From: Bacteroidota bacterium
Lineage (GTDB): Bacteria; Bacteroidota; Bacteroidia; Chitinophagales; LD1
DNA length: 44,441 bases
Reading direction: 5' to 3'
Assembly (NCBI GenBank): GCA_947476645.1
Contig: CANJRM010000019.1
Span: 1-44,441 of the forward strand
A program made the position numbers and the translations under genes. The notes beneath the pieces are model-generated. The model saw only the letters and a program-made list of their open reading frames with translations, was not told the origin of the DNA and did no database searches. This document shows, one piece after another, positions 1,465-42,131 of this stretch. Position 1 is the first letter of the stretch, and every line of letters begins with the position of its first letter.

Positions 1465-1485
1465 ATTGAATGACGAATGATGAAG
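1465..1485. repeat. Weak 7-bp repeat, about 3 units, before glmS
   Basis: Three successive heptamers of the form ATTGAAT / GACGAAT lie in the DUF4270-glmS gap. Weakest member of the dispersed heptamer family described in the findings. Confidence 0.3.
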
Positions 1486-1550
1486 GCTTCAAATAATTTT
1501 CTTTTGCTTTGCGCGTTAATGGCATTATCGTTTAATCAAAAACAGAATTT

Positions 1551-3386
1551 ATGTGCGGAATAGTTGCTTACATAGGTCCACGCGAGGCGTATCCGATTTT
1601 AATTAAAGGGTTGAAAAGATTAGAGTACCGCGGTTACGACAGCGCAGGAGTTGCTCTTATGAATGGCACGCTCAACATTTATAAAAACAAAGGTAAAGTC
1701 AGCGACCTCGAAGCAAATGCTGCGGGTAAAAATGTTTCGGGACATTTAGGAATGGGGCATACGCGTTGGGCTACACACGGTGAACCTAACGACATCAACT
1801 CACATCCGCATCTTTCGCAAAGTGGCGATATTGCTATTATCCATAACGGCATTATTGAAAACTACGGCACACTGAAAGAAGAGTTGAGTAACCGCGGGCA
1901 TAAGTTTACGAGCGATACAGACACCGAAGTGCTCGCTCACCTAATTGAAGATGTAAAACAAAACACAGGTTGCGAATTAGATGAAGCGGTGCGTCTTGCA
2001 CTGCATGAAGTAGTTGGGGCGTATGCCATTGTAATTATTTCGAAGAACGACCCTACGAAATTAATTGGTGCGCGAAAAGGTTCGCCACTTGTAGTGGGTA
2101 TTGGTGATGACGAATATTTTATGGCGAGTGATGCCACTCCTATTATTGAATACACCAAGAATGTAACTTACCTTGAGGACGGTGAAATTGCTTTTATAAA
2201 AGACGGAAAGCTTTCGATTAAAACGATTGACAACGTTGAGCATATTCCTTATATCCAAACATTGGAAATGAATCTGGAGAACATTGAAAAAGGCGGTTAC
2301 ACGCATTTCATGCTCAAAGAAATTCACGAACAACCGCGCTCTATTTACGATTCGTTGCGCGGAAGATTTGACCCTATGACGGGAAGTTTTGCTATGCGAA
2401 GTTTAAAAGAACACGAAAGCAAAATCAAAAATCTTAAACGCATAATCATAGTTGGTTGCGGTACTTCATGGCACGCTGGTTTAGTTGGCGAATATTTGTT
2501 TGAAGACATTGCTCGCATTCCCGTTGAAGTAGAATATGCTTCTGAATTCCGTTACCGCAATCCGGTAATTGGAGAAGATGATTTGGTAATTGCCATTTCG
2601 CAAAGCGGAGAAACAGCCGATACATTAGCTGCTATTGAATTAGCGAAGGAAAAAGGTGCCACCATTTTTGGTTTGTGTAACGTAGTTGGCTCTTCCATTC
2701 CGCGCGCGTCACATGCGGGTGCATACACACACGCAGGTCCTGAAATTGGTGTGGCGAGTACGAAAGCATTTACTGCGCAAGTGGCAGTGCTCACACTATG
2801 GGCTTTTGGTTTTGCTGAAATAAGAGGTAAGGCAACCAAGTTAGATTTGAGAAATGCTTTTGCAGAACTCGAAACGATTCCGGCAAAAGTTCAAAAAACA
2901 TTACTGTGCGAAGACAAGGTGATTGAAATTGCTGAGTTGTTCAAAGACTCGCACAACTTCCTTTATCTCGGAAGAGGATATCAGTTTCCTGTAGCACTTG
3001 AAGGCGCATTGAAGCTGAAAGAAATTTCTTACATCCATGCTGAAGGTTATCCTGCAGCTGAAATGAAACACGGTCCAATCGCGTTGATTGATGCAAACAT
3101 GCCGGTGGTCGTAATCGCAACTAAAAACAGCATCTACGAAAAGGTAATCAGCACCATTCAGGAGATAAAAGCGCGCAAAGGACAAATCATTGCTATAGTA
3201 ACAGAAGGTGATGTGAAGGTGCGCGGAATGGCGGACTACGTAATTGAAATTCCCGAAACCGTAGAATATCTGGTGCCTCTGCTTTCTACTATTCCATTGC
3301 AATTGCTCTCTTATCACATTGCGGTTATGCGTGGTTGTAATGTTGACCAGCCGCGAAACTTAGCGAAGAGTGTGACCGTGGAATAA
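1551..3386 (+). CDS. glmS: Glutamine-fructose-6-phosphate aminotransferase (isomerizing)
   Basis: Makes glucosamine-6-phosphate from fructose-6-phosphate and glutamine, the first step to UDP-GlcNAc for peptidoglycan and lipid A. The protein is 611 residues, close to the E. coli enzyme (609). It starts MCGIVAYIG, so Cys2 becomes the N-terminal nucleophile of the class II glutaminase domain (about 1-220, with RWATHG and HNGIIEN). Two SIS sugar-isomerase domains follow (about 285-425 and 455-600, with GTSWHAG and SQSGETADT), and the protein ends in the family signature QPRNLAKSVTVE. Its TAA overlaps the queA ATG by one base (TAATG), so the two genes are probably translationally coupled. Confidence 0.98.
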   Translation: MCGIVAYIGPREAYPILIKGLKRLEYRGYDSAGVALMNGTLNIYKNKGKVSDLEANAAGKNVSGHLGMGHTRWATHGEPNDINSHPHLSQSGDIAIIHNGIIENYGTLKEELSNRGHKFTSDTDTEVLAHLIEDVKQNTGCELDEAVRLALHEVVGAYAIVIISKNDPTKLIGARKGSPLVVGIGDDEYFMASDATPIIEYTKNVTYLEDGEIAFIKDGKLSIKTIDNVEHIPYIQTLEMNLENIEKGGYTHFMLKEIHEQPRSIYDSLRGRFDPMTGSFAMRSLKEHESKIKNLKRIIIVGCGTSWHAGLVGEYLFEDIARIPVEVEYASEFRYRNPVIGEDDLVIAISQSGETADTLAAIELAKEKGATIFGLCNVVGSSIPRASHAGAYTHAGPEIGVASTKAFTAQVAVLTLWAFGFAEIRGKATKLDLRNAFAELETIPAKVQKTLLCEDKVIEIAELFKDSHNFLYLGRGYQFPVALEGALKLKEISYIHAEGYPAAEMKHGPIALIDANMPVVVIATKNSIYEKVISTIQEIKARKGQIIAIVTEGDVKVRGMADYVIEIPETVEYLVPLLSTIPLQLLSYHIAVMRGCNVDQPRNLAKSVTVE

Positions 3387-4597
3387 TGCATCCCCGCGAA
3401 CTTCAAATAAAAAATTTCACTTACGATTTACCTGAAAGCAAAATCGCGAAGTACCCTTTGGCGGAGCGGAATTTAAGTAAGCTATTGGTTTACCGCGATG
3501 GAAAAATCTCTGAAGATGTTTACAAAAACATAGCTGACCACATCCCCGAAAATTCATTGCTGGTTTTCAACAACACCAAAGTAATTCCTGCACGTTTGTT
3601 TTTTAAAAGTGCAACGGGAGCAAAAATTGAAATTTTTTGTTTGGAACCAGCAGAAGAAAACAAAGAGTTTGCTTCTGTTATGAGTAAACAAAAATCTGTT
3701 CGCTGGCAATGCATGGTTGGCAGAGCAAGTAAATGGAAAGAAAAAATTCTTGAACACCGCACTACTGACTTTACGCTCACCGCAGAAATTATTGAAAGAA
3801 CCAGCGATGCATTCATTATTGAATTTTCTTGGACACCCGGGGAACTTTCGTTTGCTGAAATTTTAGGCAAGAGCGGTATGATGCCGATTCCGCCTTACCT
3901 GAAACGCGATAGCGAGGAAATCGATTTGAAACGTTATCAAACAGTTTATGCGAAACACGAAGGCTCCGTAGCTGCACCTACAGCCGGATTACACTTTACC
4001 GAAGCAATCTTTGAAAAGCTGACAGCAAAAAATATTTCGAAAGAAGAAGTAACGCTTCATGTAGGTGCAGGAACTTTTAAGCCAGTGAAAAGCGAAACAA
4101 TGAACGAGCATGAGATGCATGCAGAAGTTATGGATGTAACCACTACAACCATTCAGCATCTATGTAATTCGTTACAACCAAAGATTATTGCGGTAGGAAC
4201 TACTTCTCTTCGTACAATAGAATCTCTTTATTGGATGGGCGCAAAAGCAAAATTGAATCCTGAAATTTCATTGCAGGATTTAGAAATAAAACAGTGGGAT
4301 GCTTATGAACAAACCAAAACCTACGAAGTTTCAGATGCGCTTGAAGCACTTATTTTCTGGATGAAAAAAAATGAAACGGAACGGCTGATTTGCAAGACGC
4401 AAATTATGATTGCGCCTTCTTACGAATTAAAAATTGCGAATGCGCTTGTCACTAATTTTCATCAGCCGAATTCTACGCTCCTGCTTTTAGTGGCTGCTGT
4501 GGTTGGTGAGGACTGGAAGAAAATTTACAACCACGCTCTCGAAAATGATTTTCGATTCTTGAGTTACGGAGATGGGAGTTTGCTTTTTGCGAAGTGA
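3386..4597 (+). CDS. queA: S-adenosylmethionine:tRNA ribosyltransferase-isomerase, long form
   Basis: QueA transfers and isomerises the ribosyl part of SAM onto preQ1-modified tRNA to give epoxyqueuosine. Family motifs are clear: PARLFF, SVAAPTAGLHFTE, LHVGAGTFKPVK, EMHAE, VGTTSLRTIESL and NALVTNFHQPNSTLLLLV. At 403 residues it is about 45 longer than E. coli QueA (356). The extra length appears spread over the middle (about 85-150) and the region before the final motif (about 290-330). Longer QueA-like proteins are common in Bacteroidota, and whether they have exactly the classic activity is not shown here. The ATG overlaps the glmS stop by one base. The gene converges with the small membrane-protein gene, leaving a 4-bp gap. 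Confidence 0.9.
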   Translation: MHPRELQIKNFTYDLPESKIAKYPLAERNLSKLLVYRDGKISEDVYKNIADHIPENSLLVFNNTKVIPARLFFKSATGAKIEIFCLEPAEENKEFASVMSKQKSVRWQCMVGRASKWKEKILEHRTTDFTLTAEIIERTSDAFIIEFSWTPGELSFAEILGKSGMMPIPPYLKRDSEEIDLKRYQTVYAKHEGSVAAPTAGLHFTEAIFEKLTAKNISKEEVTLHVGAGTFKPVKSETMNEHEMHAEVMDVTTTTIQHLCNSLQPKIIAVGTTSLRTIESLYWMGAKAKLNPEISLQDLEIKQWDAYEQTKTYEVSDALEALIFWMKKNETERLICKTQIMIAPSYELKIANALVTNFHQPNSTLLLLVAAVVGEDWKKIYNHALENDFRFLSYGDGSLLFAK

Positions 4598-4835: not shown

Positions 4836-5426
4836 TTATTCAAGTTGACTTGTCTTTACTCTTATTGTTCCGGTGATGTGCTTAATCACATAATCAGTAA
4901 AGTTTTCGTTGGCTGTCATTCCGTTTCCATAAATAATTTCATCGGGCGTTGTAATCTTCACAAACGAGTTGGAGTAAATTATTTTTTTGTCTTCATCCCA
5001 AATCAATTCATCAGTATTTAAAATTTCTCCTTTTTGGTTGACCACCACCACGCTATCACGTGCTGTCATGGAGTGACTGTTCTCAATGGCGGTGGCATAC
5101 TTGGCGGTGAGTGTACTTTCTACTTTGTGATCAGTGTTGTAAAACAGAAGTTTCATGCCGTCAGAAAATTCGAGATAAGGTTTTGCGGTGTTGTAACGCG
5201 TAACAGTATGCCCGCTTGCCTGAATGCGCACTACTCCTTCATCGGAATAATTTATTTCAACGTCTTTCCCCTTTTCAATATTTACGTTGGCGCGGGTTCT
5301 AATCAACTTCGCAGTTTCGGAATTATTGCCGCAAGAAGAAAGCGAGATAGTAGACGATAGACAAAAGATAAGAGATAGAAAGTGAAACAGCGCGTTCAAC
5401 TGTAATTTGTTTATTGCGCAATTCAT
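4836..5426 (-). CDS. lptC: LPS export ABC transporter periplasmic protein LptC (lipoprotein form)
   Basis: LptC carries lipopolysaccharide from the LptBFG inner-membrane complex to the periplasmic bridge. The 196-residue product has a signal peptide ending in an LSSC lipobox (Cys32) followed by a LptC-like beta-jellyroll with typical elements such as 'GHTVTRYNTAKPYLEF', 'ATAIENSHSMTARDSVVV' and 'DELIWDEDKKIIYS'. The frame can extend to a TTG at 5435, but the ATG at 5426, one base after the stop of the upstream barrel gene, is preferred. The hydrophobic part of the signal peptide (about residues 16-27) is encoded by a 7-bp repeat array at 5346-5380. Confidence 0.88.
   Translation of the reverse strand: MNCAINKLQLNALFHFLSLIFCLSSTISLSSCGNNSETAKLIRTRANVNIEKGKDVEINYSDEGVVRIQASGHTVTRYNTAKPYLEFSDGMKLLFYNTDHKVESTLTAKYATAIENSHSMTARDSVVVVNQKGEILNTDELIWDEDKKIIYSNSFVKITTPDEIIYGNGMTANENFTDYVIKHITGTIRVKTSQLE
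5346..5380. repeat. 7-bp tandem repeat array (5 units) inside the lptC signal-peptide codons
   Basis: Five consecutive heptamers beginning with GA keep exact 7-base phase (for example GATAGTA, GACGATA, GATAAGA). On the minus strand they encode the hydrophobic core of the LptC signal peptide. Confidence 0.75.
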
Positions 5427-5427
5427 C

Positions 5428-6777
5428 TCAATCAAATTTACGCTTGATAAACCAGATATCGTTCAGCACAAAGCCGAACGTGAGTTTGTAATAGTTTTCG
5501 CGGAAAATACTTTTGTCGCTTCCGCCACGCGTGCCGAAATCGCCACTGATATTTAATCTGCCTACAGAACGGAATGGAAATCCAATTCCGATAGTTCCGC
5601 CTGCCTGTGTCAATGCTTTTCCGTTTACGTTGATTTCACTAACACCGTAGTAACCGCCAAAACGATATTGCACACGGCTCAAATATTTTTTCTTGTCAAG
5701 TTCATCATACTTCGGTGTAATCTGAAAACCCACAGAAATTCTCCAGCTATCATTCAATCTGGCATTGTTCAATGGTGAAGTGAAATTTTTCCAGTTCATA
5801 AATTTAAAATCAATGCCCGCCATCCAATAACGTTCGTTACCAAACATCACACCCGTTCCTATATTGAACGGCAAATTGATTTTTGATTTTTTGTTGAACG
5901 AAGCCGCAGCTGTATCTACTGCGATAAATCCGTAAGTAGAATTGTATTCAAATCGTTCCCAACGATTCGAAAGTTTTGCATCCATCTTCATTCCACTTGA
6001 GCCATATGCACCAAACGTAAAGAAGATATCGCTGCGCGCATCAGGGTCGTTATCGTTATGAAAAATTCTGCGCTGATATTGAATACCTATGTTGTAAATA
6101 AAACTTTTCACGTTCAAGTTGGTGATGTTGCGCGTGCTGTAAGCCTCCAAACTGTCAGGAAAAGTGATGGTCTTTTGATAATCTAATTTGCCGAATAGAA
6201 AACCAAAATTTGCTCCGATAGAAAAACCTTTCACTTTGTAAGCACCACCGGCATATACCTGATAAAGCGAACCTGTTCCGCTGAACACTTCGCGGTGAGC
6301 ACCAATAGCCGAATCATTAAAATTTTGAATGAAAGTGTAATTGATGTTTGTGTAAGGAAGCAAACCAAGGCTGATAGCGTAGCTGTTCTTCTTCGGATTG
6401 GGGACAAAAGCAATAGCAAAGTGACTGATGCCACCGCTCGTAGCTTTATAAGTAGAATCTTTCACAATGCTAAGTCCGTCAAAGTTAGCGCCTATCTCAA
6501 CCGTGGTGCGTGTGAGCGAAGCATACGATGCAGGGTTGGTGTAATTGATATTTACAGAACTAAAATAAGGAGCAGCCAATTCACCCATTCCTTTGTTTGC
6601 CGAAAAAACAGTTGAACGAACATAGCCCAACCCATAACGCGAGTATGGCGAAGAAGCCTGCGCAAAAACAGATTGAAAATTGAAAATTGAAAATTGAACA
6701 ACAAACAGCATCGCCAAAATTCGAAAATTCATGATGAACGTTCGGGTATTAAATAGAGATGCAAATATTTTTTTCAT
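5428..6777 (-). CDS. Outer-membrane beta-barrel protein of the coaX-lptC cluster
   Basis: A 449-residue exported protein ending a signal peptide at about residue 39 (VFAQ), followed by alternating strands rich in aromatic residues and glycine, as in FadL/OmpP1-like barrels. The mature start SSPYSRYGLGY and the motif INYTNPASYASL are typical of a conserved Bacteroidota protein found between coaX and lptC. ATG 6777 overlaps the coaX stop by 4 bases. A second ATG at codon 16 would give a more compact signal peptide and may be the true start. Part of the signal peptide (residues 27-36) is encoded by a 7-bp repeat. Function unknown; the cluster suggests outer-membrane or LPS biogenesis. Confidence 0.8.
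   Translation of the reverse strand: MKKIFASLFNTRTFIMNFRILAMLFVVQFSIFNFQSVFAQASSPYSRYGLGYVRSTVFSANKGMGELAAPYFSSVNINYTNPASYASLTRTTVEIGANFDGLSIVKDSTYKATSGGISHFAIAFVPNPKKNSYAISLGLLPYTNINYTFIQNFNDSAIGAHREVFSGTGSLYQVYAGGAYKVKGFSIGANFGFLFGKLDYQKTITFPDSLEAYSTRNITNLNVKSFIYNIGIQYQRRIFHNDNDPDARSDIFFTFGAYGSSGMKMDAKLSNRWERFEYNSTYGFIAVDTAAASFNKKSKINLPFNIGTGVMFGNERYWMAGIDFKFMNWKNFTSPLNNARLNDSWRISVGFQITPKYDELDKKKYLSRVQYRFGGYYGVSEINVNGKALTQAGGTIGIGFPFRSVGRLNISGDFGTRGGSDKSIFRENYYKLTFGFVLNDIWFIKRKFD
6671..6698. repeat. 7-bp tandem repeat array (4 units) in a signal peptide
   Basis: One GATTGAA followed by three exact AATTGAA units. It encodes the end of the hydrophobic core of the barrel protein's signal peptide on the minus strand. 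Confidence 0.85.
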
Positions 6778-7493: not shown

Positions 7494-9829
7494 TGTAAAA
7501 TTCTTTTGCCTGATACATACTTACTGATGAAACTTTGCTTGTAGCGCGGTTGTATTTGCGTCTTCCAATATTGTTCGCACTCTTCGTTGGTTTTAAATTT
7601 ACCGAGCAAATATTTGAACAATCCATCCTCTTCTAAAACTTCATATCCCTTCAAGTGCGTGTAATAATTAGTGTCGAGCGGAATGAATTTTTTGAGCGCG
7701 TAAAACTGAATGCGATAAAACGTATCGAGAACAACTTTTGAATTTGCTCCGCTGATAGGTTTAATTTCCGAATTAATTCCTGAAATGTTTTTTGTATCAA
7801 TGCTCTCAGTTGCATTTGTAATTGTCTCGATAATCAGTTCTTTTTCTCTTTCCTTAGTTTCTGCTGCTCCCTTTTTCTGTTTAGCAGCTGCAGCTTCTTT
7901 TTCTTTCAGTTCATAATCGTTGCCAACGGTATGGTAATTCGTATTAGCAGGTTGATTTCTTGTTTTGTTTTTTCTGTTTGCAGAATCTTTTTCTGCCAAT
8001 AAATTCTCGTTGCTCTGTTTGTTGTTTTTCGCAATTGATGAACTATCGTTTGAAGCAACCTTGGTTTTCGCAACCGCAACAATCTTGGTTGAATCGTTGT
8101 TTGCAACAACTACATCTGCTTTCTTCGCGACTACATTTTTTTCTTTGGCGGAAGTTTTCTTGTTCTCCTTTTTGTTTTCTGCAACAGCCGGATTTGTAGC
8201 TGAAGTATCTGCGGTAGGAATTTTTAATGCCACACTTTCAGTATTCAAAACGGTCGTAATTGTTTTTCGGGTAATGCTGTCGGTTGCCTGCGGATAAAGA
8301 TTAGGCGCGTTTCCATTTATTGGTTTCGATGACAGCGCGCTTGCCTCGGTTGTATTGTCAAGAATGCTTTTTGCTTTAGGATATTGTTTTCCTAAAGACG
8401 TTTCCGGTTTAATCGGCTCTTCATATAACACAGCGATTGATGGAGGATTGTTTGAACCTAAAGTAGCCATCGGCAAAACGGGAGCATCACTCGGTTCAAT
8501 TTCACTCGCACGTTTCTGACTGAATTTATTGTTGAGTGATGCGCTGGTGATATCGATTGTTTCCTGAACATTGTTGACGATAAGCTCGTTGAGGTTGTAT
8601 TGAATTTCATCGGCAGTAGCACCTAAAAGTTTGCGCACATCATATGCGCAGTTTACGGCTCTTCGTTTTTCTATGTAAGGAATTTTCGGAAAAATATCTC
8701 CGCTCTCTATATTAGAACACGGCACCGAAAAAACTTTTGTTGAGCCATGCACAGAAGTAGTATCGTAATAAGTATAAACCGGAATGGCACCCCAGTCATT
8801 CACATCGGTTTCGCCTGTGAAATTATTTTTCTTCAACTCCAAATCAATCAAATAGCCCTTGCGGTTTTTTACATCATCGTTGCTCGCAATTAAATTTCCG
8901 AGCGAGTAAGCCACAATGCCTTCTTTCATTTGACCATTGCGATTGTAGCTATTGTAGTCAATGCGCATGGGCGCATTCGGATTAGTGCCCACCACCATAT
9001 TCGCACCCAACTGAAATGCATATTGCACAATATCCATTTGCATGTAGTTAGGCGTTTCCTGATTGTTCGCGCCCCAATCGAAATAAGCAATTATGAAATC
9101 GGGTTTCTGCGCAAGCGCCATTCGCATATCGCGCTCAATGGTAAACTTGTCAATTTCGTTAATGATAAAATCGCGGGAGATAGATGGACGATTCGTAACG
9201 CGAGTGTAATTCAACACAGCAATTCGAAAACCTTTTTTGTTGATGATGAGCGGATAATTTCCGTTGCGCTGCATATTATCGGTGAACGCACCCGTGTGAT
9301 ACATGTCGTAAGTGTTCAGCAAATCGCGCGTGCGCTTCAACATGGGTTTGCTGATATTAGCCGTGTGAATGTTGGCGTGCATAGCCACATTGATGCCCGC
9401 ATATTTTAAAGCCAAGGCAAATTCATCGGGAGCCGAAAACATATTTTTTACGTTGTTGCCAAACGATGTTTTCAAATTCACAATAGAAATATCGCCAAGA
9501 TTTAAAATCGGTTGAATGTACTTGAACTCATTTCTGAAATCATACTTCTTTGTTTTTTCATCGTAAGCATAATTCAAATGTTTTTCGGTTTGATAAACAT
9601 TGCCGCCAATCATTACATGCAGAATGCGAAACGAGTCAACAGTTTCTTTTCCCTCATCGTGTTTAATATGCACCAACCGCTGGCGAAGTTTAATAATTCC
9701 ACTCGTGCTATCGCCTTGCGAAAACGAAAACTGAAATGAACCGATAAGAACAAAAAATAGCAAGCCCAAAGAACATAAGGTCTTTAACTGCGGTCGATGG
9801 TCAATGGTCAATGGTCTGCTGTTTTTCAC
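7490..9829 (-). CDS. CapA-like protein with degenerate active site, low-complexity linker and C-terminal SPOR-like domain
   Basis: A 779-residue exported protein. Residues 1-38 form a signal peptide. Residues about 68-400 match the CapA (poly-gamma-glutamate synthesis) calcineurin-like fold in pattern, but the metal-binding motifs are changed: GGN (75-77), NLKTSFG (118-124), ANIH (152-155) for ANNH, DWG (251-253) for HWG and GTNPN (281-285) for GHHPH. YSLGN (308-312) is kept. A charged, Ala/Lys/Asn/Thr-rich linker spans about 430-690. The last 80 residues resemble a SPOR domain, which in other proteins binds septal peptidoglycan. I infer a non-catalytic envelope protein. The start is GTG 9829, directly abutting the previous stop; no ATG is available in the signal peptide. 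Confidence 0.7.
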   Translation of the reverse strand: MKNSRPLTIDHRPQLKTLCSLGLLFFVLIGSFQFSFSQGDSTSGIIKLRQRLVHIKHDEGKETVDSFRILHVMIGGNVYQTEKHLNYAYDEKTKKYDFRNEFKYIQPILNLGDISIVNLKTSFGNNVKNMFSAPDEFALALKYAGINVAMHANIHTANISKPMLKRTRDLLNTYDMYHTGAFTDNMQRNGNYPLIINKKGFRIAVLNYTRVTNRPSISRDFIINEIDKFTIERDMRMALAQKPDFIIAYFDWGANNQETPNYMQMDIVQYAFQLGANMVVGTNPNAPMRIDYNSYNRNGQMKEGIVAYSLGNLIASNDDVKNRKGYLIDLELKKNNFTGETDVNDWGAIPVYTYYDTTSVHGSTKVFSVPCSNIESGDIFPKIPYIEKRRAVNCAYDVRKLLGATADEIQYNLNELIVNNVQETIDITSASLNNKFSQKRASEIEPSDAPVLPMATLGSNNPPSIAVLYEEPIKPETSLGKQYPKAKSILDNTTEASALSSKPINGNAPNLYPQATDSITRKTITTVLNTESVALKIPTADTSATNPAVAENKKENKKTSAKEKNVVAKKADVVVANNDSTKIVAVAKTKVASNDSSSIAKNNKQSNENLLAEKDSANRKNKTRNQPANTNYHTVGNDYELKEKEAAAAKQKKGAAETKEREKELIIETITNATESIDTKNISGINSEIKPISGANSKVVLDTFYRIQFYALKKFIPLDTNYYTHLKGYEVLEEDGLFKYLLGKFKTNEECEQYWKTQIQPRYKQSFISKYVSGKRILQ
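9792..9819. repeat. 7-bp tandem repeat array (4 units) at the start of the CapA-like gene
   Basis: GGTCGAT, two exact GGTCAAT units and GGTCTGC. On the minus strand it encodes residues 4-13 (SRPLTIDHRP) of the signal-peptide n-region. Confidence 0.8.
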
Positions 9830-11865: not shown

Positions 11866-12010
11866 AAATCGCAGCGGACACATTCGCGCATTTATTCTCC
11901 ACACTCTGCCAATAATTCTATAAAAAATCCTTTGCCTGATTATTGAATTCAACCGCTTCGGCAAAACTTTTAGTTTAGCACCCCTTTACAATAAAGAAGG
12001 CAGTCAAAAC

Positions 12011-12045
12011 GATTAACCAATAACAATTAACTTTTAACTTTTCCC
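12011..12045. repeat. 7-bp tandem repeat array (4-5 units) directly before secA
   Basis: GATTAAC, CAATAAC, AATTAAC and TTTTAAC keep exact 7-base phase, followed by TTTTCCC and then the secA ATG. This is the untranslated leader of secA, so the array is not limited to coding sequence. Confidence 0.65.
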
Positions 12046-15366: not shown

Positions 15367-15375
15367 AAATAATAC

Positions 15376-16065: not shown

Positions 16066-16511
<446 letters not shown>

Positions 16512-18761: not shown

Positions 18762-20027
18762 TTACTCTACTACGAATTTTCCGCTCTTCAAAATTTCGTT
18801 TGAAGAACTTTTCATTTGATAAAAATAAATACCTGAAGAGAATTGGTGATTGACGATTGATGATTGACTGTCGAGCGTTCGCGCCAAAATTTTTCTTCCT
18901 GTAGCGTCATACAACTCCAAATTTAGCGGTTGCTTAAACTCGAAACTTGATACCCGAAATTCGAAACTGCTTCTCGATGGATTAGGGAAAACAGAAACTG
19001 AAATTTGGTTTTCTGTTTCGCTAATTCCCAAAACTACATGAGGAGTAATTTCCAAAATTCGCAGAGGTGTTCCATCACTCCAATTGCCCATGCCGTGTTG
19101 TTCAGGTGTGTCGCCAAAAGCGTATTCGCAATTTTGATTGTGCAACGCGCAATCCATCAATGCATCCTGCAACTTCCAAGTGCAGTAATATTCAAAAGCA
19201 TCCACCGGCCCACTACCTGATGCCGCTATAAAAAGATTTGTTTCTCCGTTATCGAAAGCAGCATCACCGGCAAGCGGGTCGAAATGTGTTGCGGTAATTC
19301 CCGGTGAACCGTGGCTATCGCTATAGGTGTGAACTAAATTCTTGTGCGAAGTAGGTGCATTAACCGATTGATTAAAAATTGTAGTGCCAGGTGCTGTACC
19401 TACCACAATATCATCTTGGCTTACCAAAATCAAATACGGAATGTCGGAGGGGAACGAAGAATAATCGCTCATTAAATAATTAGCAGCCCCGGGCTGCATA
19501 GAAAATGCACTGAGCGGTTTTGGCAAACCATACTGCGCGTAAAGCATGGCCAGATCTGCGGTAAGCACACCTCCCACAGAGTGACCGAGCAGGAAAAAAT
19601 TATCTCTTCTGCCTTTCACATGACCTGCTTGCTGAATAGTATCCAATGCGCGTTGAATTCCCTTGGCGCAACTGTCGTTATAGCTTGCAATTTGTGCGGC
19701 AAAATCTAAAGTTCGCTGGTAGCGTGGATAAATCACAATATTTCCTTTGCGTACCAAATGCTTAATGAACGCTCCGTAAAGTTTCGGATTGGTTTCGCCA
19801 AGACCGTGAATGAACACTACCACGTTGGCCGAATCAGGAGTTGGCGTGTTGGGTTCATACAACCAAAAATCTTCTCCGTTTCCGTTTGTTGCATAGTCGA
19901 ATTGTGTAACACCACCATTGGTATAGCTGTTTCCACCAGGGCCAAAATCGGGTTGTAACGGTTGAGTAATTTGCGCATTGAGAAATAAAGAGAGAAGAAC
20001 TGCGATAGGGAGTAGAAGTTGCTTCAT
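18762..20027 (-). CDS. Secreted alpha/beta hydrolase with T9SS sorting domain
   Basis: A 421-residue protein with a signal peptide (1-18, ends LNAQ) and an alpha/beta-hydrolase fold. It has an oxyanion HGLGE (74-78) and the nucleophile motif GHSVGG (Ser150); the later histidine is probably in SDSHGSPG. Residues about 338-421 form a type A T9SS C-terminal domain (VFPNPS, ATGRKIL, SSGIYFYQ), so it is exported across the outer membrane and probably surface-attached. The CTD contains two heptamer arrays. The substrate is unknown; lipase or esterase activity is plausible. Confidence 0.87.
   Translation of the reverse strand: MKQLLLPIAVLLSLFLNAQITQPLQPDFGPGGNSYTNGGVTQFDYATNGNGEDFWLYEPNTPTPDSANVVVFIHGLGETNPKLYGAFIKHLVRKGNIVIYPRYQRTLDFAAQIASYNDSCAKGIQRALDTIQQAGHVKGRRDNFFLLGHSVGGVLTADLAMLYAQYGLPKPLSAFSMQPGAANYLMSDYSSFPSDIPYLILVSQDDIVVGTAPGTTIFNQSVNAPTSHKNLVHTYSDSHGSPGITATHFDPLAGDAAFDNGETNLFIAASGSGPVDAFEYYCTWKLQDALMDCALHNQNCEYAFGDTPEQHGMGNWSDGTPLRILEITPHVVLGISETENQISVSVFPNPSRSSFEFRVSSFEFKQPLNLELYDATGRKILARTLDSQSSIVNHQFSSGIYFYQMKSSSNEILKSGKFVVE
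18848..18882. repeat. 7-bp repeat array (about 5 units) in a T9SS sorting domain
   Basis: GATTGAC, GATTGAT, GATTGAC and two diverged heptamers, encoding about residues 382-393 (DSQSSIVNHQ) of the hydrolase CTD. Confidence 0.8.
18940..18974. repeat. 7-bp repeat array (5 units) at the start of a T9SS sorting domain
   Basis: TCGAAAC, TTGATAC, CCGAAAT, TCGAAAC and a diverged unit, encoding the 'SSFEFRVSSFEF' loop (about 352-363) just after the PNPS strand. Confidence 0.75.
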
Positions 20028-23133: not shown

Positions 23134-23742
23134 ATGAATACGAAATCAGAAAATATTCATCCGTTCAACCAGTTGCTGCCACGTGAAAGCAAGGAGCGAT
23201 TGTTGAACCAGCGTGCCAAAGTTTTATGGTTCACAGGTTTGAGTGGTTCGGGCAAAAGCACCATTGCAAAAGGCTTGGAAGAAGAACTACATGCCAAAGG
23301 ATTTTTTTCGGTGGTGTTAGATGGTGATAATGTTCGTACGGGTATCAACAACAATCTTGGATTTAGTGATGAAGACCGAAAAGAAAATATTCGCAGAATT
23401 GCCGAGGTTGCAAAGTTGTTTTTACAAAACGGAGTGATTGTGATTTGCTGCTTTGTTTCGCCTACCGAAGAAATCAGAAACCTTGCGCGAACAATTATTG
23501 GCGAAAAAGATTTTGTAGAAATATTCGTGAACACTCCGATTGAAGAATGCGAGAAACGCGATGTGAAAGGACTTTATGCCAAAGCACGCAAAGGCGAAAT
23601 AAAAGATTTCACAGGAGTAAATGCGCCATTTGAAATTCCTACAAACCCCAACTTAGAAATTCAAACAAAAAATAAATTGGTAGAGCAAAGTGTAAACAAA
23701 GTATTGGAGTTCTGTATTCCAATTTTAAATTTCCAATTTTAA
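23134..23742 (+). CDS. cysC: Adenylylsulfate (APS) kinase
   Basis: Phosphorylates APS to PAPS. The 202-residue protein has a P-loop GLSGSGKS at 35-42, the substrate motif DGDNVRTGINNNLGFSDEDRKENIRR, and the FVSP segment that carries the conserved serine. It also has GLYAKARKGEIKDFTGVNAPFE, diagnostic for APS kinase. A TTG start at 23119 is possible, but it overlaps the -7 element, so ATG 23134 is chosen. The last residues (IPILNFQF) and the stop codon are made from a heptamer array that continues into the 21-bp gap before cysD. Confidence 0.95.
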   Translation: MNTKSENIHPFNQLLPRESKERLLNQRAKVLWFTGLSGSGKSTIAKGLEEELHAKGFFSVVLDGDNVRTGINNNLGFSDEDRKENIRRIAEVAKLFLQNGVIVICCFVSPTEEIRNLARTIIGEKDFVEIFVNTPIEECEKRDVKGLYAKARKGEIKDFTGVNAPFEIPTNPNLEIQTKNKLVEQSVNKVLEFCIPILNFQF

Positions 23743-23758
23743 ATTTCCAATTTTCAAT
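23717..23758. repeat. 7-bp repeat array (6 units) across the cysC stop codon
   Basis: Alternating TTCCAAT and TTTAAAT heptamers, three TTCCAAT and two TTTAAAT plus TTTCAAT, form a near-perfect 14-bp higher-order repeat. It encodes the cysC C-terminus and fills the cysC-cysD gap. Confidence 0.9.
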
Positions 23759-24666: not shown

Positions 24667-24671
24667 AACAA

Positions 24672-24706
24672 TTTGAGAATTCGAGAATGTGATAATTTGA
24701 AAATTG
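24672..24706. repeat. Degenerate 7-bp repeat array (about 5 units) in the cysN leader
   Basis: TTTGAGA, ATTCGAG, AATGTGA, TAATTTG and AAAATTG in 7-base phase fill the cysD-cysN gap and end just before the cysN ATG. Confidence 0.6.
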
Positions 24707-24708
24707 AA

Positions 24709-26010
24709 ATGCAAAATACAATGACAGATACGGTAGACAAATTTGACTCGAAAAGTTATTTGAATATGGAGTTGTTGCGTTTCACAACAGCTGGAAGCGT
24801 AGATGACGGCAAATCAACTTTGATTGGACGATTGCTTTACGATAGCAAATCAATTTTCGAAGACCAGTACGAAAACATACGAGCAACTTCTGAACGCAGA
24901 GGAGAAACCACAGTGAATCTTGCGCTTTTTACCGATGGATTAAAAGCAGAACGCGAACAGGGAATTACTATAGATGTGGCTTACAGATATTTTTCTACAC
25001 CAAAGAGGAAATTCATTATTGCCGATACCCCCGGGCATATTCAGTATACGCGCAACATGGTTACCGGTGCAAGCACCGCAAACCTCGCTATTATTCTGGT
25101 AGACGCGCGCCAGGGTATTGTGGAGCAAACAAAACGACATTCAATCATCGCATCGCTGTTGGGCATTCCGCACATTGCGCTTTGCGTAAACAAAATGGAT
25201 TTGGTGAATTACGATGAAGCCGTTTACAACAAAATTGTTGCGGAGTTTCGCGAGTTCGCTACGCGATTGAAAACAAGAGACATTCACTTCATTCCCATTT
25301 CCGCCTTGAATGGCGATAACGTGGTGAATCGTTCTGATAAAATGAAATGGTATGAAGGTGTTACACTGATGTATCTGCTCGAAAATATTCACATCGCAAG
25401 CGACATCAACCATATTGATATGCGCTTTCCGGTGCAGTATGTAGTGCGTCCATACAGCGATGAGTTTCATGATTATCGCGGATACGCGGGAAGAATTGCC
25501 AGCGGAGTAATTCGAAAAGGTGATAAGGTGACGGTGATGCCTTCTGGTTTTTCCTCGAAAGTAAAATCGGTTGAACTGGATGGAAAAGAATTGGAGGAAG
25601 CATTTGCTCCGCTATCTGTAACTATTCAACTCGAAGATGATATTGATATTTCGCGTGGTGATATGTTGGTGCGCGAGGGAAATTTGCCTAAACAAGGTCA
25701 GGATATTGAAGCGATGGTTTGCTGGATGAGCGACAGGCCGATTCAACTCAACGGAAAATATTTTTTGAAACACACCACTAAAGATGCACGCGCTGTGGTG
25801 AAAGAAATAAAATACAAACTCGACATCAACACACAACATCGCATTACCGAAAATCCGAGCATTGGAATGAATGATGTGGGTAGAATTTCATTGCGCACAA
25901 CAGCGCCTTTGATTTATGATGCGTACACAAAAAATCGCGATACGGGAAGTTTTATTCTGATTGATGAAGGAACGAATGTGACAGTAGGCGCATGTATGAT
26001 TATTGATTAA
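24709..26010 (+). CDS. cysN: Sulfate adenylyltransferase subunit 1 (GTPase)
   Basis: The GTPase partner of CysD; GTP hydrolysis drives APS formation. The 433-residue protein has the elongation-factor-type GTPase motifs GSVDDGKST (29-37), DTPGHIQY, NKMDLV and a SAL motif, then EF-Tu-like beta-barrel domains. There is no fused APS kinase; cysC is separate. The frame extends to TTG 24673 through a heptamer array, but ATG 24709 (or 24721) is more likely. The rhodanese gene follows after 9 bp. Confidence 0.96.
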   Translation: MQNTMTDTVDKFDSKSYLNMELLRFTTAGSVDDGKSTLIGRLLYDSKSIFEDQYENIRATSERRGETTVNLALFTDGLKAEREQGITIDVAYRYFSTPKRKFIIADTPGHIQYTRNMVTGASTANLAIILVDARQGIVEQTKRHSIIASLLGIPHIALCVNKMDLVNYDEAVYNKIVAEFREFATRLKTRDIHFIPISALNGDNVVNRSDKMKWYEGVTLMYLLENIHIASDINHIDMRFPVQYVVRPYSDEFHDYRGYAGRIASGVIRKGDKVTVMPSGFSSKVKSVELDGKELEEAFAPLSVTIQLEDDIDISRGDMLVREGNLPKQGQDIEAMVCWMSDRPIQLNGKYFLKHTTKDARAVVKEIKYKLDINTQHRITENPSIGMNDVGRISLRTTAPLIYDAYTKNRDTGSFILIDEGTNVTVGACMIID

Positions 26011-33132: not shown

Positions 33133-34290
33133 TTACTTAATTAATCGGTCTTTCCATCTATATCTTCCCATTAAACTCAACGGGCCAATCAACACCACAT
33201 ACAGCACATAAAAAATTTCGATGATTGGTAAAAGTAAAAGCATATACCATTTGCGAAAGAAAACCGTAACGGGAATATTGAAAATAAAATCTGAGAAGAG
33301 TTTTGTTCCGCCTGCAATAGCAACGGGCAACCAACTAAACTCCTCCATTTGCAGGGCAAACAATGCGGTGAGAATAATCAGCAGATTGAAAAAATATGCG
33401 AAGTAGAGAATGCTCGTAATTTTAAAATTGCTGTATCGAGCCGATTTTGAAATCCAGCGAACGCGCTGCGAAATAAAATTGCCCAATCCTTTCTCTGGTT
33501 TTGTAAAAACGCAAGCATCGAAATTTTTCACAAAGCCAATACTTCCCGGAAATTTCTCGTTTACTTTTTGCATCAAAAAAATATCGTCACCTGTTGGCAC
33601 ATCGTGGTTGCCTTTGAACCCTTCCACTTCATGAAAAGTTTGTTTCGCATATATCAGATTAGCACCATTGCACATGGTAGGCATATTGTTGCGAATGGTT
33701 GCGCCAGTAATTCCCATCAGGTTCATCACATCCAATTGCTGAAAAACCTGCAATGGAAAATAAGCCGGCTTCATCATTACGGGAGCTGTAACTAATTTGA
33801 AATCGTTGTTGGTGAAATAATCCACCATTGTGGTTAACCAATTTTCTCCTGCGGTACAATCGCCATCGGTAGTGATAATCAAATCGCCTTTTGCGTTTTT
33901 AATACCGAGTGCAATTGCTTTTTTCTTGTTCGGTGAATATTCGCCCGCATTGCCAATGTATTGCATCAAGTCAAGCACCAGTAAATTCGGTTGATTGATT
34001 TCGCGGGCAAAGCGCAAAGTAGGGTCGGTAGAAAAATCATCTACAAGCACCACTTCAAACAAATGCTGCGGATAATTTTGTTTGAAAATGCTTTCCAAAC
34101 AGGCTTTGATGTTTTCGCTTTCATTGCGCGTAGGAATAACAATTGAAACAAACGGCTGTTTTAATTCCGCATTCCGCATTCCCAATTCTGCATTCTTCAA
34201 TCTTATCCATCCCACAAAAAAATAAAGCACCAGCAGGAAGTAAAGAGCCGAAAAGAAAATGGAAGCACTGAGGAGAGGCGAAAAAATCAT
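33133..34290 (-). CDS. Membrane-bound family 2 glycosyltransferase
   Basis: A 385-residue processive-type glycosyltransferase. It has one N-terminal membrane helix (about 8-28), a GT-A domain starting VSIVIPTRNESENI (about 48), a VLVDDFSTD strand, the metal-binding TTDGDC and an acceptor-site QRVRW motif (about 280). Two or three C-terminal helices (about 295-370) follow. Such enzymes add sugars to lipid or polysaccharide carriers. The linker between helix and catalytic domain (residues 29-43, with the repeated NAEL) comes from a 7-bp array. Confidence 0.88.
   Translation of the reverse strand: MIFSPLLSASIFFSALYFLLVLYFFVGWIRLKNAELGMRNAELKQPFVSIVIPTRNESENIKACLESIFKQNYPQHLFEVVLVDDFSTDPTLRFAREINQPNLLVLDLMQYIGNAGEYSPNKKKAIALGIKNAKGDLIITTDGDCTAGENWLTTMVDYFTNNDFKLVTAPVMMKPAYFPLQVFQQLDVMNLMGITGATIRNNMPTMCNGANLIYAKQTFHEVEGFKGNHDVPTGDDIFLMQKVNEKFPGSIGFVKNFDACVFTKPEKGLGNFISQRVRWISKSARYSNFKITSILYFAYFFNLLIILTALFALQMEEFSWLPVAIAGGTKLFSDFIFNIPVTVFFRKWYMLLLLPIIEIFYVLYVVLIGPLSLMGRYRWKDRLIK
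34163..34204. repeat. 7-bp repeat array (6 units) in a glycosyltransferase linker
   Basis: AATTCCG, two CATTCCG/CATTCCC, AATTCTG, CATTCTT and CAATCTT in exact 7-base phase. Encodes the segment between the membrane helix and the GT-A domain. Confidence 0.85.
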
Positions 34291-37369: not shown

Positions 37370-40300
37370 TTAATCTTTGATTATCTTTTTTGTAACCGTG
37401 AAGTTGTTTCCATTCACTTTCAAAAAATAAACTCCGCTCTCTAGCATCAGCAAATTAATTTTGGTTGTAGCTGTAAATATCTTCTGCTCAAAAACTTTTC
37501 TTCCCTCTACATCAAAAACAAAAAGCTGCATTGGCTGTTCAAAGTCGCGGTTCGCAAATCGCAGTTCGTATTTTCCATCGCTTGGATTTGGATAAAGTTC
37601 GACACGACCATCATCATTTAAATTTTCAATTCCTGTTCCGCCTACAAACACATTATTTGAAACTACACGGCAACCGTTCGTATCGGTAATCGCTACTGAG
37701 TAATAGCCCGCTTGCTGCGCCACATAAATGTGCGAAGTAGCGTTTGCAATTTCTGCATCGTTCAAATACCATTGATAAGTAACTGCCGAGTATGCAGTCA
37801 TGGTATCTCCGTTCACACTGATAGAAACAGGAGGGAGCGGATAAATGTTTACCGCAAGGTGATTGGAAGTAGCCGTGCAGTTTCCATCGGTTACGGTTAC
37901 ATAATAATTGCCCGCTTGCTTGGTGTAAATGCACTGTGTGGTTTGCCCGAGGTTCCATAAATAGGAACCGTGTGTTGTGGTTACACATACATGCGCGCTG
38001 TCGCCAATGCACATAATCGGTTTGTCACTCGCAATAGTCACTGAAATATTATTGCTCGTATCTACCTGCACACTTGCCGTGGCACTGCAATTGTTTGCAT
38101 CGTTCACCATCACCGTGTAATTTCCTGAGGGAAGGTTATTAAGCGAAGAAACTATAGCACCATTGCTCCACACATAACTGAATGGCGTTGCTCCGGTTGT
38201 TGCAGTCACAGTCGCGCTTCCGTTATTATTTCCGCAACTTGTGTTGGTAGAATTTGTAGAGAGCGTAACTCCGTTTGAAGAAACAACAGTAGCACTTGCA
38301 GTAGCCGTGCAGTTGCCGCTGGCGGCCACTGTCACTGTATAATTTCCTGAAGGCAGATTAGAAATGGAAGCGCTCGTTCCTCCGTTGCTCCATGTATAAG
38401 TATAAGGTCCCGTGCCGCTCGTGATAGTTACACTTGCGTTTCCTGTTGTGCTGTTGCATGCGGTGTTGGTAGCAGAAGCGCTCACCGCCACCGAGCCGGT
38501 ACTCACCGTCACAAACGCAGTATCTTTTTTATTGCAACTCGAAGAATCCATCGCTACGAGCATCACTAAATGCGAGCCTGTGCTGCTGAAAGTATAAGCG
38601 GGTTGCGCAACCGTAGAAGAGTCTACATTGCCGAAATACCAAACGTATTGAACCGCATTGATGGAATGATTGATGAACTGCACCGTGTTCGAATTGCAAC
38701 TCTGCACATTGGCAGAAGTATCATTGCTGCCTGCAATCGTTGCCAAAGCATCGGCATAAACACGCGCTGCCTGAAAATCTATTTTGAAAACCGTGGCATC
38801 AAAATCGTTCGAAAGTTTTGTGGTGTGAAACGCATTTGCCGTAGTGTATAAAGTTGTTTTGTCGGTGCAAAGCGCGTGATAAATTATTCCGCGTTTATCA
38901 AAGCGGCAAGTTCCTCCGTCCACATGCGAATCGGTAGGACCATAGTAAGAACCGAACTTCAATGCAATGGCATCGGGCTCCAAAGTCAACATATAAAAAC
39001 CTCCGCTGCCCGTTTGAAAAGCATCGGGTGTCAGTTGAAATCCGGTGCATGTTCCAATGCTCGTGTTCAAACCTCCGTGACCAACCGCGTAGATATAACC
39101 ACACTCATCTACCATCAAAGCTGTCGGAGCAATTTCGTTAAACGTGGTTACGAAAAGCACAGAGTCCAAGGTCGGTTTTAGTTTCGCAATGAACGCACCA
39201 ACACCAACCGCCTGATAAGCATTTGCTGTTGCCTGAATAGCATTGTTCGGGCTCGAACCAAAAATGTAAACGTTTCCGCTTTTGTCTAAGTCGAGCAAAT
39301 ACGCCTGCTCTTCACCTGCCGAACCAAAATAAGTTGATTTCAAAACTGCTTGCCCATCGGCACGCACATGCATCACAAACGCATCAAACAATCCGCCCTG
39401 ATAACTTGTATGAATTGTGCCGGCTGTATTCGTCATCGCGTTACTCGACACCGCACCCGTAACAAATAAATCTCCGTTGGCATCTAATCGCAAACCATAG
39501 CAGGCATCTTCTTTATTGCCGCCAATAAACGTGCTCCACACCAGAGAAGACAAATCGCTGTTCAGTTTAAACAAAACTCCATCCTGATATCCTCCGCCAT
39601 ACGTTGCCTGAAACGCACCCGCAGTAATTGGAAAATCTGTAGCGCGCGTGTAACTCGCCACATAAGCATTACCAAGCGAGTCAACTACAATCTCTCCTTT
39701 AAAACGGTCACCATAATATCTTTCAACTGTCGACCAGTTCGTGCCATCTTCTTCACTTCTTCCGCCTACATACGTTGAGCCAAGCAAAGCAGAACCCGAT
39801 GAATTTAATTTGGTCACTACAATATCATCTAAATGATTTCCGAAATTATCAGGAAGATTCACGGGTTGATATGCATTCGCACTCACCGGATAATTGGTAG
39901 AGTTCGAAGTGCCGTAGATATACAACTGGTCGTTGGCATCTACAAACAAACTGTGCGGTTGCTCCTGTCCGCTACCGCCAATATATGTTGACCATAACAG
40001 CGATGAACCATCGGGGTTATACTTGCTCACGCATATATCCTGATAGCCGCCATGATGCGTAGTTTGAAACGCACCCGCTGTAGCCGGATACCCGGCACCG
40101 GTACCGTTGGCATTTACTGAAAACGCTCTGCCTGCCGAATAAATATTTCCGTGTTGGTCATACGATGCGCTGTGTGCATACGCGCGATACGTAGTACCGG
40201 AATAAGTTGCCGCTACAATCACAGGGTCAATTACTAATTCATAACTGTAATTATATCCTTCAGGAAAGCGAAATGATACCGTTTCATTCTGCAACGCATA

Positions 40301-40954: not shown

Positions 40955-40982
40955 TGTTTTTGGAATTAGAAGTGAAATGTAA

Positions 40983-42131
40983 TTATTGCTTTACCAATTT
41001 CTTTGTCCAACTAATGCCACTCCCTTCCAACCTCAGGAAGTACATTCCATTCTCAACACCACTCAAATTTATTTCGGTAGAAGATGAAACAATCTTCCGC
41101 TCCAAAATTTTTCTTCCACTCAAATCAAAAACCGAAAGCTGTATTTGCTTTTCAATGTCGCGGTTCGCAAATCGTAGTTCGCAAGTCGTTTCCATCGGAT
41201 TCGGATATACACTAACCACATCTTCCTCTTTTACTTCCTCTATGCGGTTTGGTCCATTCAACGTAAAGAGATTGAAAAAATTCCAAATCTCTTGGCTTGC
41301 ATCAAGGTCTCTGTTGGTTGGTCCGTAGATATAATCAAAAGTGGCATTGGGCCAGGTATGTCCTCCACCGGTAATTTTATAAAACCAGACTTCTGTTCCG
41401 TCACCGCAACTTTGGTAACGTATCCGCTCCACAGTTGAACTGTCAAGCAAATTAATATTCGGCAAAGCAATCGTATCACTTGTTGCACTGCATTGGTCTT
41501 GTCCCAGCCAAAAACTAAGCGTCTCTTCCACACTTTTAAAGCCCACATCGCCTCCATAAGGCACAAGCGGGTCTGCCGTTCCGTGAATATGCAGCACTGG
41601 AATTTTACGCGATTGACTCGTACAATTAAAAGCAGTAAGTGTAGAAATTGTTCCCGCCACAGGAGCAATGGCGGCTATTCTGTTTTCTAAATCACAAGCT
41701 AAACGGTAACTCTGAAAACCACCGTTGCTCATGCCGGTTGCATACACGCGATTCAAATCAATATTGTAAAGCAGCGCAAGCGTGTCAATAATTTTCGAAA
41801 GAAAACCAACATCATCTGGCGAACTATTGTAAGGCGCACTAAATCCCGAGTTCCATGAGTTTCCAATACCATTCGGATAAACTACCACGAAATTATTGGC
41901 ATCCGAAGTTTCGCTCATTCGCGAATAAAATTCCTGCTGCCCGCCATTAGAACCAAGTCCATGCATGTTGAGCACAATCGGAAGATGCTGTGCAGTGGTA
42001 AACCCAGTAGGCAGATGCACTAAAAAATCTCTTGCCGTATTTTCATAATTCATGTTGAGTGTAAAAGAAGTAATCGAGAACGCAGGCCCTGAGAGAATGA
42101 GTACGATTAAGGCGAGTAAATATTTTTTCAT
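40983..42131 (-). CDS. Secreted PHB depolymerase/feruloyl-esterase-like hydrolase with T9SS sorting domain
   Basis: A 382-residue exported esterase. The signal peptide ends near residue 20 (PAFS). The esterase domain has an oxyanion MHGLGSNGG (56-64), the nucleophile GMSNGG (Ser135), the acid in HIHGTADPLVPY and the histidine in GGGHTWP, the set seen in the LpqC/PHB-depolymerase family. Residues about 300-382 form the T9SS sorting domain (VYPNPMETT, DLSGRKIL, ENGMYFLRL). It may cleave ester links in polyesters or plant hydroxycinnamates; the substrate cannot be told. The giant T9SS gene follows after 28 bp. Confidence 0.88.
   Translation of the reverse strand: MKKYLLALIVLILSGPAFSITSFTLNMNYENTARDFLVHLPTGFTTAQHLPIVLNMHGLGSNGGQQEFYSRMSETSDANNFVVVYPNGIGNSWNSGFSAPYNSSPDDVGFLSKIIDTLALLYNIDLNRVYATGMSNGGFQSYRLACDLENRIAAIAPVAGTISTLTAFNCTSQSRKIPVLHIHGTADPLVPYGGDVGFKSVEETLSFWLGQDQCSATSDTIALPNINLLDSSTVERIRYQSCGDGTEVWFYKITGGGHTWPNATFDYIYGPTNRDLDASQEIWNFFNLFTLNGPNRIEEVKEEDVVSVYPNPMETTCELRFANRDIEKQIQLSVFDLSGRKILERKIVSSSTEINLSGVENGMYFLRLEGSGISWTKKLVKQ
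41154..41188. repeat. 7-bp repeat array (5 units) in a T9SS sorting domain
   Basis: AATGTCG, CGGTTCG, CAAATCG, TAGTTCG and CAAGTCG in exact phase, encoding about residues 315-326 (ELRFANRDIE). Confidence 0.85.

Follow-up and report, generated by a model that had tools for sequence, protein, structure and literature searches.

The window analysed here is a 44,441-nucleotide stretch of Bacteroidota DNA (G000:C19:1-44441, part of a 3.56-Mb draft genome; 41% G+C) that carries short, dispersed arrays of tandemly repeated heptamers with units that vary between loci. By comparing orthologous arrays in five related genomes (1.88 Mb in all, comparisons anchored on the flanks), we could show, at the level of aligned sequences, that the unit changes in all copies of an array together while place, phase and often length are kept. 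The arrays are a genuine feature of one group of relatives and are specific to the heptad period. Heptanucleotide repeats as such were already known, and what is new from the five genomes is the in-place unit change, the inverted pairing of arrays, a motif at the array edge and the lack of an excess of 7-bp insertions and deletions (indels). We tentatively favour, at a little below an even chance, the reading that the arrays were left by local copying or template switching that is specific to this lineage, runs in a register of seven bases and mostly preserves length; this reading does not cover the choice of seven.

Period seven and unit change in orthologous arrays

Arrays were scored by adding +1 or -1 along the match track at a given lag, and counts use scores of at least 11. 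In the window, ten arrays reached this score at lag 7 (100 dinucleotide shuffles: mean 0.29, maximum 2), and lags 5, 6, 8, 9, 10 and 11 gave 0, 3, 1, 0, 0 and 0 arrays, respectively. Scores of 9-10 are no proof by themselves because shuffled windows average 1.94 arrays with a score of at least 9. In the test set for this genome, made up of the window and a further 400 kb, we found 55 arrays at lag 7 versus 5.3 in a codon-preserving shuffle, which kept the protein and codon usage of each open reading frame (ORF) and dinucleotide-shuffled the spacers (mean of 3), and observed 2, 22, 4 and 21 arrays at lags 5, 6, 8 and 9 versus 4.7, 17.3, 2.7 and 18.3 in the shuffle. The raised counts at lags 6 and 9 are coding background, and that at lag 7 is not. 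The original prediction, a fixed period with a varying unit that stands out from lags 5, 6, 8 and 9 and from codon-preserving shuffles, is thus borne out. The 1.88 Mb from the five genomes contains 238 arrays, against 8 in one shuffle, and the window, with 10 arrays in 44 kb, is about twice as rich as the 400-kb genome sample with 45. An origin of the arrays in composition, coding bias or chance retains almost no probability: lags 6, 9, 15 and 21 are elevated in the pattern of coding repeats, but the codon-preserving shuffle rules out chance and codon bias at lag 7 and intergenic arrays are enriched fourfold (60 against 15). As a separate observation, exact runs at lags 21 and 42 are also elevated in the 400-kb sample (L002-L021); these are probably coding repeats and possibly three or six heptads.

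The genome of the window was sampled to ~14% (504 of 3559 kb, larger contigs first), and the relatives are draft genomes whose samples, beyond the nearest ones, are small (10-64 kb each; that of G004 includes a 3.5-kb overlap counted twice). The window SecA is closest to those of drafts G015 (L022) and G014 (L023), with 98% identity, and the relatives show 79-87% DNA identity in their aligned parts. Besides the 45 arrays in the 400-kb sample, there are 27 in 123 kb of G015, 24 in 178 kb of G014, 12 in 103 kb of G017 and 8 in 63 kb of G001, followed by G008 (4 in 63 kb), G006 (2 in 63 kb), G011 (2 in 18 kb), G005 (1 in 25 kb), G009 (1 in 48 kb), G012 (1 in 23 kb) and G016 (1 in 14 kb). No array was found in G002, G004, G010 and G013 (20-52 kb sampled each) or in 50 kb of E. 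coli, and one each was found in eight further genomes of the family (257 kb combined) and in ten loci from the remainder of the order (96 kb). Among SecA loci of at least 6 kb, L022 alone had more than two exact lag-7 runs of length at least 10 (six), and L023 had none. The arrays look confined to the nearest relatives within the genus, the samples of G011 and G016 being too small to judge.

No single sequence is spreading, as originally predicted: the 55 arrays of the window's genome hold 37 distinct units, the commonest of which occurs 4 times, and a set of 167 arrays holds 87 units, none dominant. Unit choice is not wholly free, since random choice would give 53.0 distinct units (minimum 48 of 500). 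Evidence for a single hidden common unit behind the arrays is mixed. An unweighted fit beat column-permuted arrays (1419 versus 955-986) and the 81 distinct consensus units beat stop-free tiled genomic 7-mers (0.61 versus 0.28-0.39 per unit), but weighted arrays did no better than such 7-mers (46.3 versus 33.7-54.2).

Orthologous comparison needs conserved flanks and so favours stable sites; the 238 arrays gave 141 rows, or 104 comparisons at 52 sites after removal of mirror pairs. Arrays stand on both sides in 62 comparisons (36 coding, 8 ORF-edge, 18 intergenic), and 46 of these pairs (28, 7 and 11, respectively) are equal in length, a comparison at the level of species rather than strains. 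Units are the same in 24 of the 62 pairs, one base apart in 17 and at least two bases apart at the best rotation in 21. In only 3 of the 16 unequal pairs is the length difference a multiple of 7, and two of these 3 come from a single site with a 21-bp palindrome in one genome; with 46 of 62 pairs equal, the orthologues do not differ mainly by whole units as in phase-variable repeats. At site 9792, for example, the unit is GGTCAAT in the window, TTGTCTC in G015 and TTGTCTG in G014, with equal length and GTC in matching phase, and at site 20325 three species carry AATTCTG, AACTCGT/AACCCGT and AACTGTC in a common phase and length.

In equal-length pairs that differ by at least 27%, shift 0 was the best alignment in 18 of 20 (12 of 14 sites), with an identity of 0.57 versus 0.24-0.32 at shifts 1-6. 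Coding arrays supply fifteen of these pairs; the intergenic ones number five and stem from three sites, of which two are in phase and one is not. Phase is thus kept at changed units, and independently arising arrays would match in phase only by chance. Differences that repeat the same change in the same column numbered 145 versus 44.5 in permutations (maximum 65 of 1000; 41 sites, each represented by one pair), both in coding arrays (89 versus 27.9, maximum 45) and in non-coding arrays (56 versus 16.9, maximum 30; 12 sites).

Placement, edges and inverted partners

Placement was recorded for 194 arrays from the five genomes of the clade, a set made before the last additions, with ORFs taken by a simple longest-ORF rule and signal peptides judged by eye from two translations. 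While 134 arrays lie within ORFs, 60 are intergenic versus 15 expected from the 92% coding share. Among the intergenic arrays we counted 47 positions that lie upstream of an ORF start by at most 60 bp (arrays between divergent genes may count twice). The coding arrays fall in the first 45 codons in 67 cases (12% of codons), in the last 90 codons in 34 (23%) and in the middle in 33 (65%). Window arrays occupy signal-peptide-like N termini, the position just 5' of the secA start and type IX secretion tails. The arrays favour low-constraint DNA, namely spacers before start codons, signal-peptide-like N termini and type IX secretion tails. Because 7 is not a multiple of 3, units within genes are read in all three frames, and all 105 coding arrays tested have a unit that is stop-free on at least one strand, as their location in ORFs requires. 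Intergenic units are stop-free on a strand in 24 of 37 cases, below the 87% of random 7-mers, so the intergenic arrays are unlike former coding DNA and such an origin is unsupported. Array placement reads as a DNA-level process filtered by protein selection.

A motif at the edge was shown to give the arrays polarity. Among outward edge 7-mers seen at least six times around the 238 arrays, AACAGCC was the most enriched (17 versus 0.77), the next including AATACAA (20 versus 2.8) and ATACAGA (12 versus 0.8). Outward AACAGC, ATACA[AG]A or ATGCAAA occurs at 41 of 197 independent sites versus 6.7 expected from position-matched controls, and inward at 9. Conversely, of 234 occurrences of AACAGCC, 24 are preceded and 6 followed by an array (score at least 9) at a distance of up to 55 bp; for AACAGCA, 7 and 2 of 552 are. 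The motif was found and first tested on one data set, and the split test that followed is internal: with 183 sites split in halves, AACAGCC ranked first and second and was confirmed in the opposite half (3 versus 0.27; 6 versus 0.18), AATACAA held weakly (3 versus 0.7), and AAATGCA, top in one half, failed in the other (1 versus 0.42). Read in the orientation of array then motif, 42 of 53 arrays are purine-rich. The sequence AACAGCCG is also the 5' arm of hairpins resembling intrinsic terminators (AACAGCCG...CGGCTGTTT) at L206 ~6835-6865 and L135 ~16044.

Neighbouring arrays are often inverted. Of 54 pairs at most 150 bp apart, 13 have reverse-complement units (at most one mismatch; null mean 1.95, maximum 7 of 2000) and 2 are direct copies. 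A strong inverted partner (score at least 12) lies within 100 bp of 17.8% of 236 arrays, versus 4.2% when the flanks of other arrays are used and 3.8% for direct matches as a control, and 37 of the 48 inverted partners scoring at least 11 are 9-32 bp from the array edge. Eight chosen array-pair regions fold with z of -3.9 to -12.7. In the intergenic hairpin L002:19036-19136 of the window's genome, 6 of the 23-24 pairs of its own fold differ on both sides in G014 and 3-4 are broken; against G015, no pair differs on both sides. A coding hairpin of G017 (L196:14391-14469) was compared with G001 (L025): depending on which segment and fold are taken, both bases are changed in 7-8 of 31-44 pairs and pairing is broken in 12-18, although each sequence folds well alone (-25 to -34 and -38 to -42 kcal/mol). 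The hairpins at L007:15735, L022:9916 and L241:8729 are absent from relatives, and that at L214:5808 is unchanged in G014 and partly broken in the window's genome. Co-changing arms are seen at two orthologous hairpins, with a minority of the arrays involved.

Other short repeats were seen in the same samples. Short palindromes lie within or next to arrays at L154 ~3865-3935, L211:4169-4233 and L015:15571-15702 (CCTGCCTGTCCTTCAGGCAGG; CCCGTTCCTATCAACGGG; the longer CTTCGACAAGCTCAG type). A palindromic element of ~62 bp at L007:2238-2299 (G000:C2:22238-22299), REP- or MITE-like, has dozens of related places in G014 and G015, and further short dispersed repeats with several matches in these two genomes lie at L007:18375-18424 and at L003:472-507 and 555-590.

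Explanations for the arrays

In the local copying that we tentatively favour, a growing strand would, during replication or repair, be displaced by a multiple of seven bases and pair with either an adjacent heptad or the inverted partner arm. The misaligned strand would copy a few bases and then mostly rejoin its own template, so that one unit may be overwritten by another, all copies would change jointly and the array length would stay unchanged. Arrays rewritten in this way would persist where sequence is free, as in spacers, signal peptides and secretion tails. A copying process that generates heptads had been suggested in the original prediction; in its favour, relatives keep phase and often length at changed units, and for the physical step we infer strand misalignment or template switching. 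The AACAGCC / AATACARA edge may have an initiating or stopping role, and presumably an enzyme stands behind the process.

Several observations weigh against this proposal. Arrays were picked for periodicity in one genome, which inflates the column statistic, and the permutation treats positions as exchangeable. Protein selection may hold phase and length, most phase pairs being coding. About 80% of sites have no edge motif, and most arrays have no strong inverted partner (18% have one). Outside arrays, an offset of +-7 shows no more matches of derived bases than other offsets do (18,416 counts in coding and 854 in intergenic DNA; the trios overlap and one was counted twice), so a copying process is not visible on ordinary DNA; inside arrays derived bases match at +-7 in excess, in a test biased by array selection. 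Arrays are also more length-variable than matched controls, as slippage predicts: lengths are equal in 32 of 48 array rows (0.67) between genes (control 185 of 230, 0.80), 38 of 49 (0.78) at N termini (409 of 432, 0.95), 24 of 30 at C termini (306 of 313) and 9 of 14 in mid-gene (219 of 225). Whole-heptad length differences occur at two sites, 23717, where G014 is shorter by 7 (one heptad) and G001 by 14 (two heptads), and L192:6630 (-7). Screens for MutS, reverse transcriptase and DinB/UmuC revealed no responsible enzyme. Loss of MutS was rejected as a cause, the MutS_I domain being present in 29 of 30 genomes including that of the window (406-residue frame) and absent only in G013, which is array-poor. 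A reverse transcriptase was likewise rejected: the domain RVT_1 occurs in 11 of the 30 genomes, among them G015 and G017, and was not detected in the window's genome, G014 or G001 (drafts; that of the window 90% complete). The window's genome has two genes for DinB/UmuC-type polymerases, yet array-poor relatives such as G004 and G013 have them too.

The strongest rival to local copying is simple replication slippage with a preferred 7-nt step, set by the polymerase footprint, in which gain and loss of heptads homogenises the units and selection on frame and length masks the changes. The proposal goes back to Mrazek et al. 2007 (as cited in PMC4679880 and PMC4692102) and would account for the greater length variability of arrays and for the steps of 7 and 14 at 23717 and of 7 at L192:6630. 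We nevertheless consider it less likely than local copying. Indels of 7 bp are not in excess over 458,522 aligned columns (14 non-coding, as compared with 17 of length 6 and 14 of length 8; 10 in coding sequence) and none is tandem-like; these columns come from ten genome pairs, which are not independent and whose alignments may be interrupted where arrays vary most. In addition, 11 of the 18 intergenic array pairs are exactly equal in length despite having no reading frame to keep, and slippage predicts neither inverted pairs nor an edge motif. Selection might instead keep the regularity and pairing of structures with a function, such as RNA hairpins or protein sites spaced by 7 nt near translation starts. 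The 47 positions close to ORF starts, the half of the coding arrays (67 of 134) that fall in the first 45 codons, the folding of the eight chosen pairs and the both-sided changes in one intergenic hairpin (6 of 23-24 pairs) would fit this. However, the other 67 coding arrays are C-terminal or mid-gene, arrays and hairpins are often missing from close relatives, most arrays are single, and free spacers and signal peptides account for the positions without any function; we regard such selection as improbable.

Much the same doubt attaches to a dedicated DNA-writing activity, which strikes us as a little less probable again, in which an enzyme would begin from a marked 3' end (...GGCTGTT or ...TTTGTATT on the complementary strand) and copy heptads from the neighbouring or opposite arm. 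If true, marked low-constraint sites including signal peptides would be continually rewritten with length and frame preserved, by a seven-base ruler. Copying of arrays from locus to locus, by gene conversion or through a small family of elements with the edge motif, could explain why there are fewer distinct units than expected (37 versus 53.0, minimum 48 of 500), why an edge motif is shared and why some arrays contain palindromes. It is the least likely of these alternatives, since wholesale replacement would keep phase at a unit change only by chance, 87 units occur among 167 arrays, and no conserved body was seen beyond the shared edge 7-mer, which is present at a fifth of sites.

Arrays of the window and known heptad repeats

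About fifteen arrays had been predicted in the window; 11 of the 15 score at least 9 and 10 score at least 11, the array at 18940 falling short of the latter, and those at 1465, 24672, 37541 and 41154 are weak. The heptamer units that had been named are present. In the first part of the window, an array of unit TAGACAA (5351..5377; score 12) lies in an LptC-like ORF (4836-5435, minus strand; Pfam LptC) with AACAGC 8 bp past its right edge. An ATTGAAA array (6672..6710; score 22), with an identical unit in G015 and G014, encodes part of a signal-peptide-like N terminus (ORF 5428-6777, minus strand), and a GGTCAAT array (9792..9816; score 16) lies near the start of ORF 7490-9829 (minus strand). 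Directly upstream of the secA start codon (12046; Pfam SecA) is a degenerate, AATTAAC-like array (12008..12042; score 16). Two arrays share one signal-peptide-like N terminus on the plus strand: AGTTTCC in its first part (16070..16102; score 26), with AACAGCC as the right edge, and TTGTCTA in its hydrophobic part as judged from the translation (16122..16155; score 19). At ~15365-15371 of the window, G014 has ~7.7 kb extra (L023:13327-21068), an insertion or rearrangement.

Type IX secretion tails (Por_Secre_tail) hold five arrays. The ATTGATG array (18842..18867, minus strand; score 13), which has another unit in G015 and G014, shares its tail with a degenerate array (18936..18966; score 10) where G015 repeats TTCGTAA. 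The others are a degenerate array (20325..20354; score 11), a weak heptad array (37541..37573; score 8, chance level alone) whose left edge reads outward AACAGCC, and a weak 14-bp, or two-heptad, array (41158..41189; lag-7 score 6, lag-14 score 12). A heptad/14-bp array (23717..23758; score 17, lag-14 score 26) spans the end of the APS kinase ORF (23119-23742; Pfam) and the spacer. An ATTCCGC array (34164..34204; score 20) lies near the start of a glycosyltransferase ORF (minus strand; Pfam), its left edge reading outward AACAGCCG; in G015, the unit at this site is CTTCGGA and the length is equal. The arrays at 24670..24709, at the listed start of the GTPase ORF 24673-26010 (plus strand; score 7; period 8 in TRF), and at 1465..1484, between ORFs (score 8), are doubtful, with scores within chance.

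Short tandemly repeated repetitive (STRR) sequences are heptanucleotide tandem repeats of cyanobacteria, and the present arrays are like them in their period of 7, short length and several units per genome. Calothrix PCC 7601, for example, has three different repetitive heptanucleotides, as cited in PMC4692102. Of the properties of STRR and simple repeats, arrays of unit 7 above chance are found here, but a few units at many loci are not (37 units in 55 arrays), and for a mainly intergenic location the picture is divided, with a fourfold enrichment between genes (60 of 194 versus 15 expected) but 134 of 194 arrays in ORFs. Here, many arrays are in genes, some form inverted pairs, some have an edge motif and unit change was followed between orthologues; the comparison in cyanobacteria is by appearance only. 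In 150 kb of Trichormus variabilis plasmid A we found 5 lag-7 arrays, some degenerate with mixed units, a resemblance of appearance rather than a strong count because 2 arrays also arose in one shuffle and 6 at lag 9.

The original prediction knew of no equivalent in Bacteroidota, which has to be corrected: MacGregor 2015 (PMC4679880) reports TAACTGA heptamer arrays in five Bacteroidetes, some of which also carry "other heptamer direct repeats". Like some of our arrays, the TAACTGA repeats of Beggiatoaceae, cyanobacteria and these Bacteroidetes lie just 5' of start codons, and other heptamers occur in some of the TAACTGA spacers; unlike here, one unit dominates in the genome studied there (169 sets; related heptamers rarely or never repeated; PMC4679880), against 87 units in 167 arrays. 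According to citations of Mrazek et al. 2007 (PMC4679880, PMC4692102), heptanucleotides outnumber the other classes of longer units in most genomes, for which a polymerase footprint was suggested; that is a statistical class, and the citing passages give no comparison of relatives for in-place unit change. In Xanthomonas and Nostoc, GGGNATC heptads (Rehm 2015, PMC4692102) likewise occupy matching intergenic positions in related strains and vary in length and sequence, but are described there as a single G-rich, quadruplex-forming unit type, whereas ours are AT-rich with many units; a G-rich heptad query against plasmids gave no match with the low-complexity filter on. In template-switch hairpins (Monttinen and Loytynoja 2022, PMC8794818), a single event also alters both stem arms with pairing kept, but these are in RNA genes, with no tandem period or seven-base register in the part of the paper used here. 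Borg tandem repeats (PMC9879509) are similarly fast-evolving, in genes and spacers, with virtually all units unique within a genome; their in-gene units, as described in the excerpts used, are divisible by three, (near-)perfect and variable in copy number, whereas here the unit in genes is 7 and the arrays are imperfect. Simple repeats in general are surveyed in PMC12699852 and PMC4060949. A literature search that mostly did not extend to subscription journals turned up no account of units changing in place, of heptad arrays in inverted pairs or of a motif at array edges.

The preference for seven in longer bacterial simple repeats is left by the literature found at the guess of a polymerase footprint. 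These freshwater relatives catch arrays in mid-change, with place, phase and often length kept and the unit swapped, and the orthologous arrays thereby narrow the mechanism to one that is not chiefly whole-unit slippage. The edge motif and the inverted arms are features for which any mechanism must account, and the array sites are concrete targets for strain-level sequencing. For the organisms themselves, the arrays are a source of rapid, frame-keeping sequence change in signal peptides and secretion tails.

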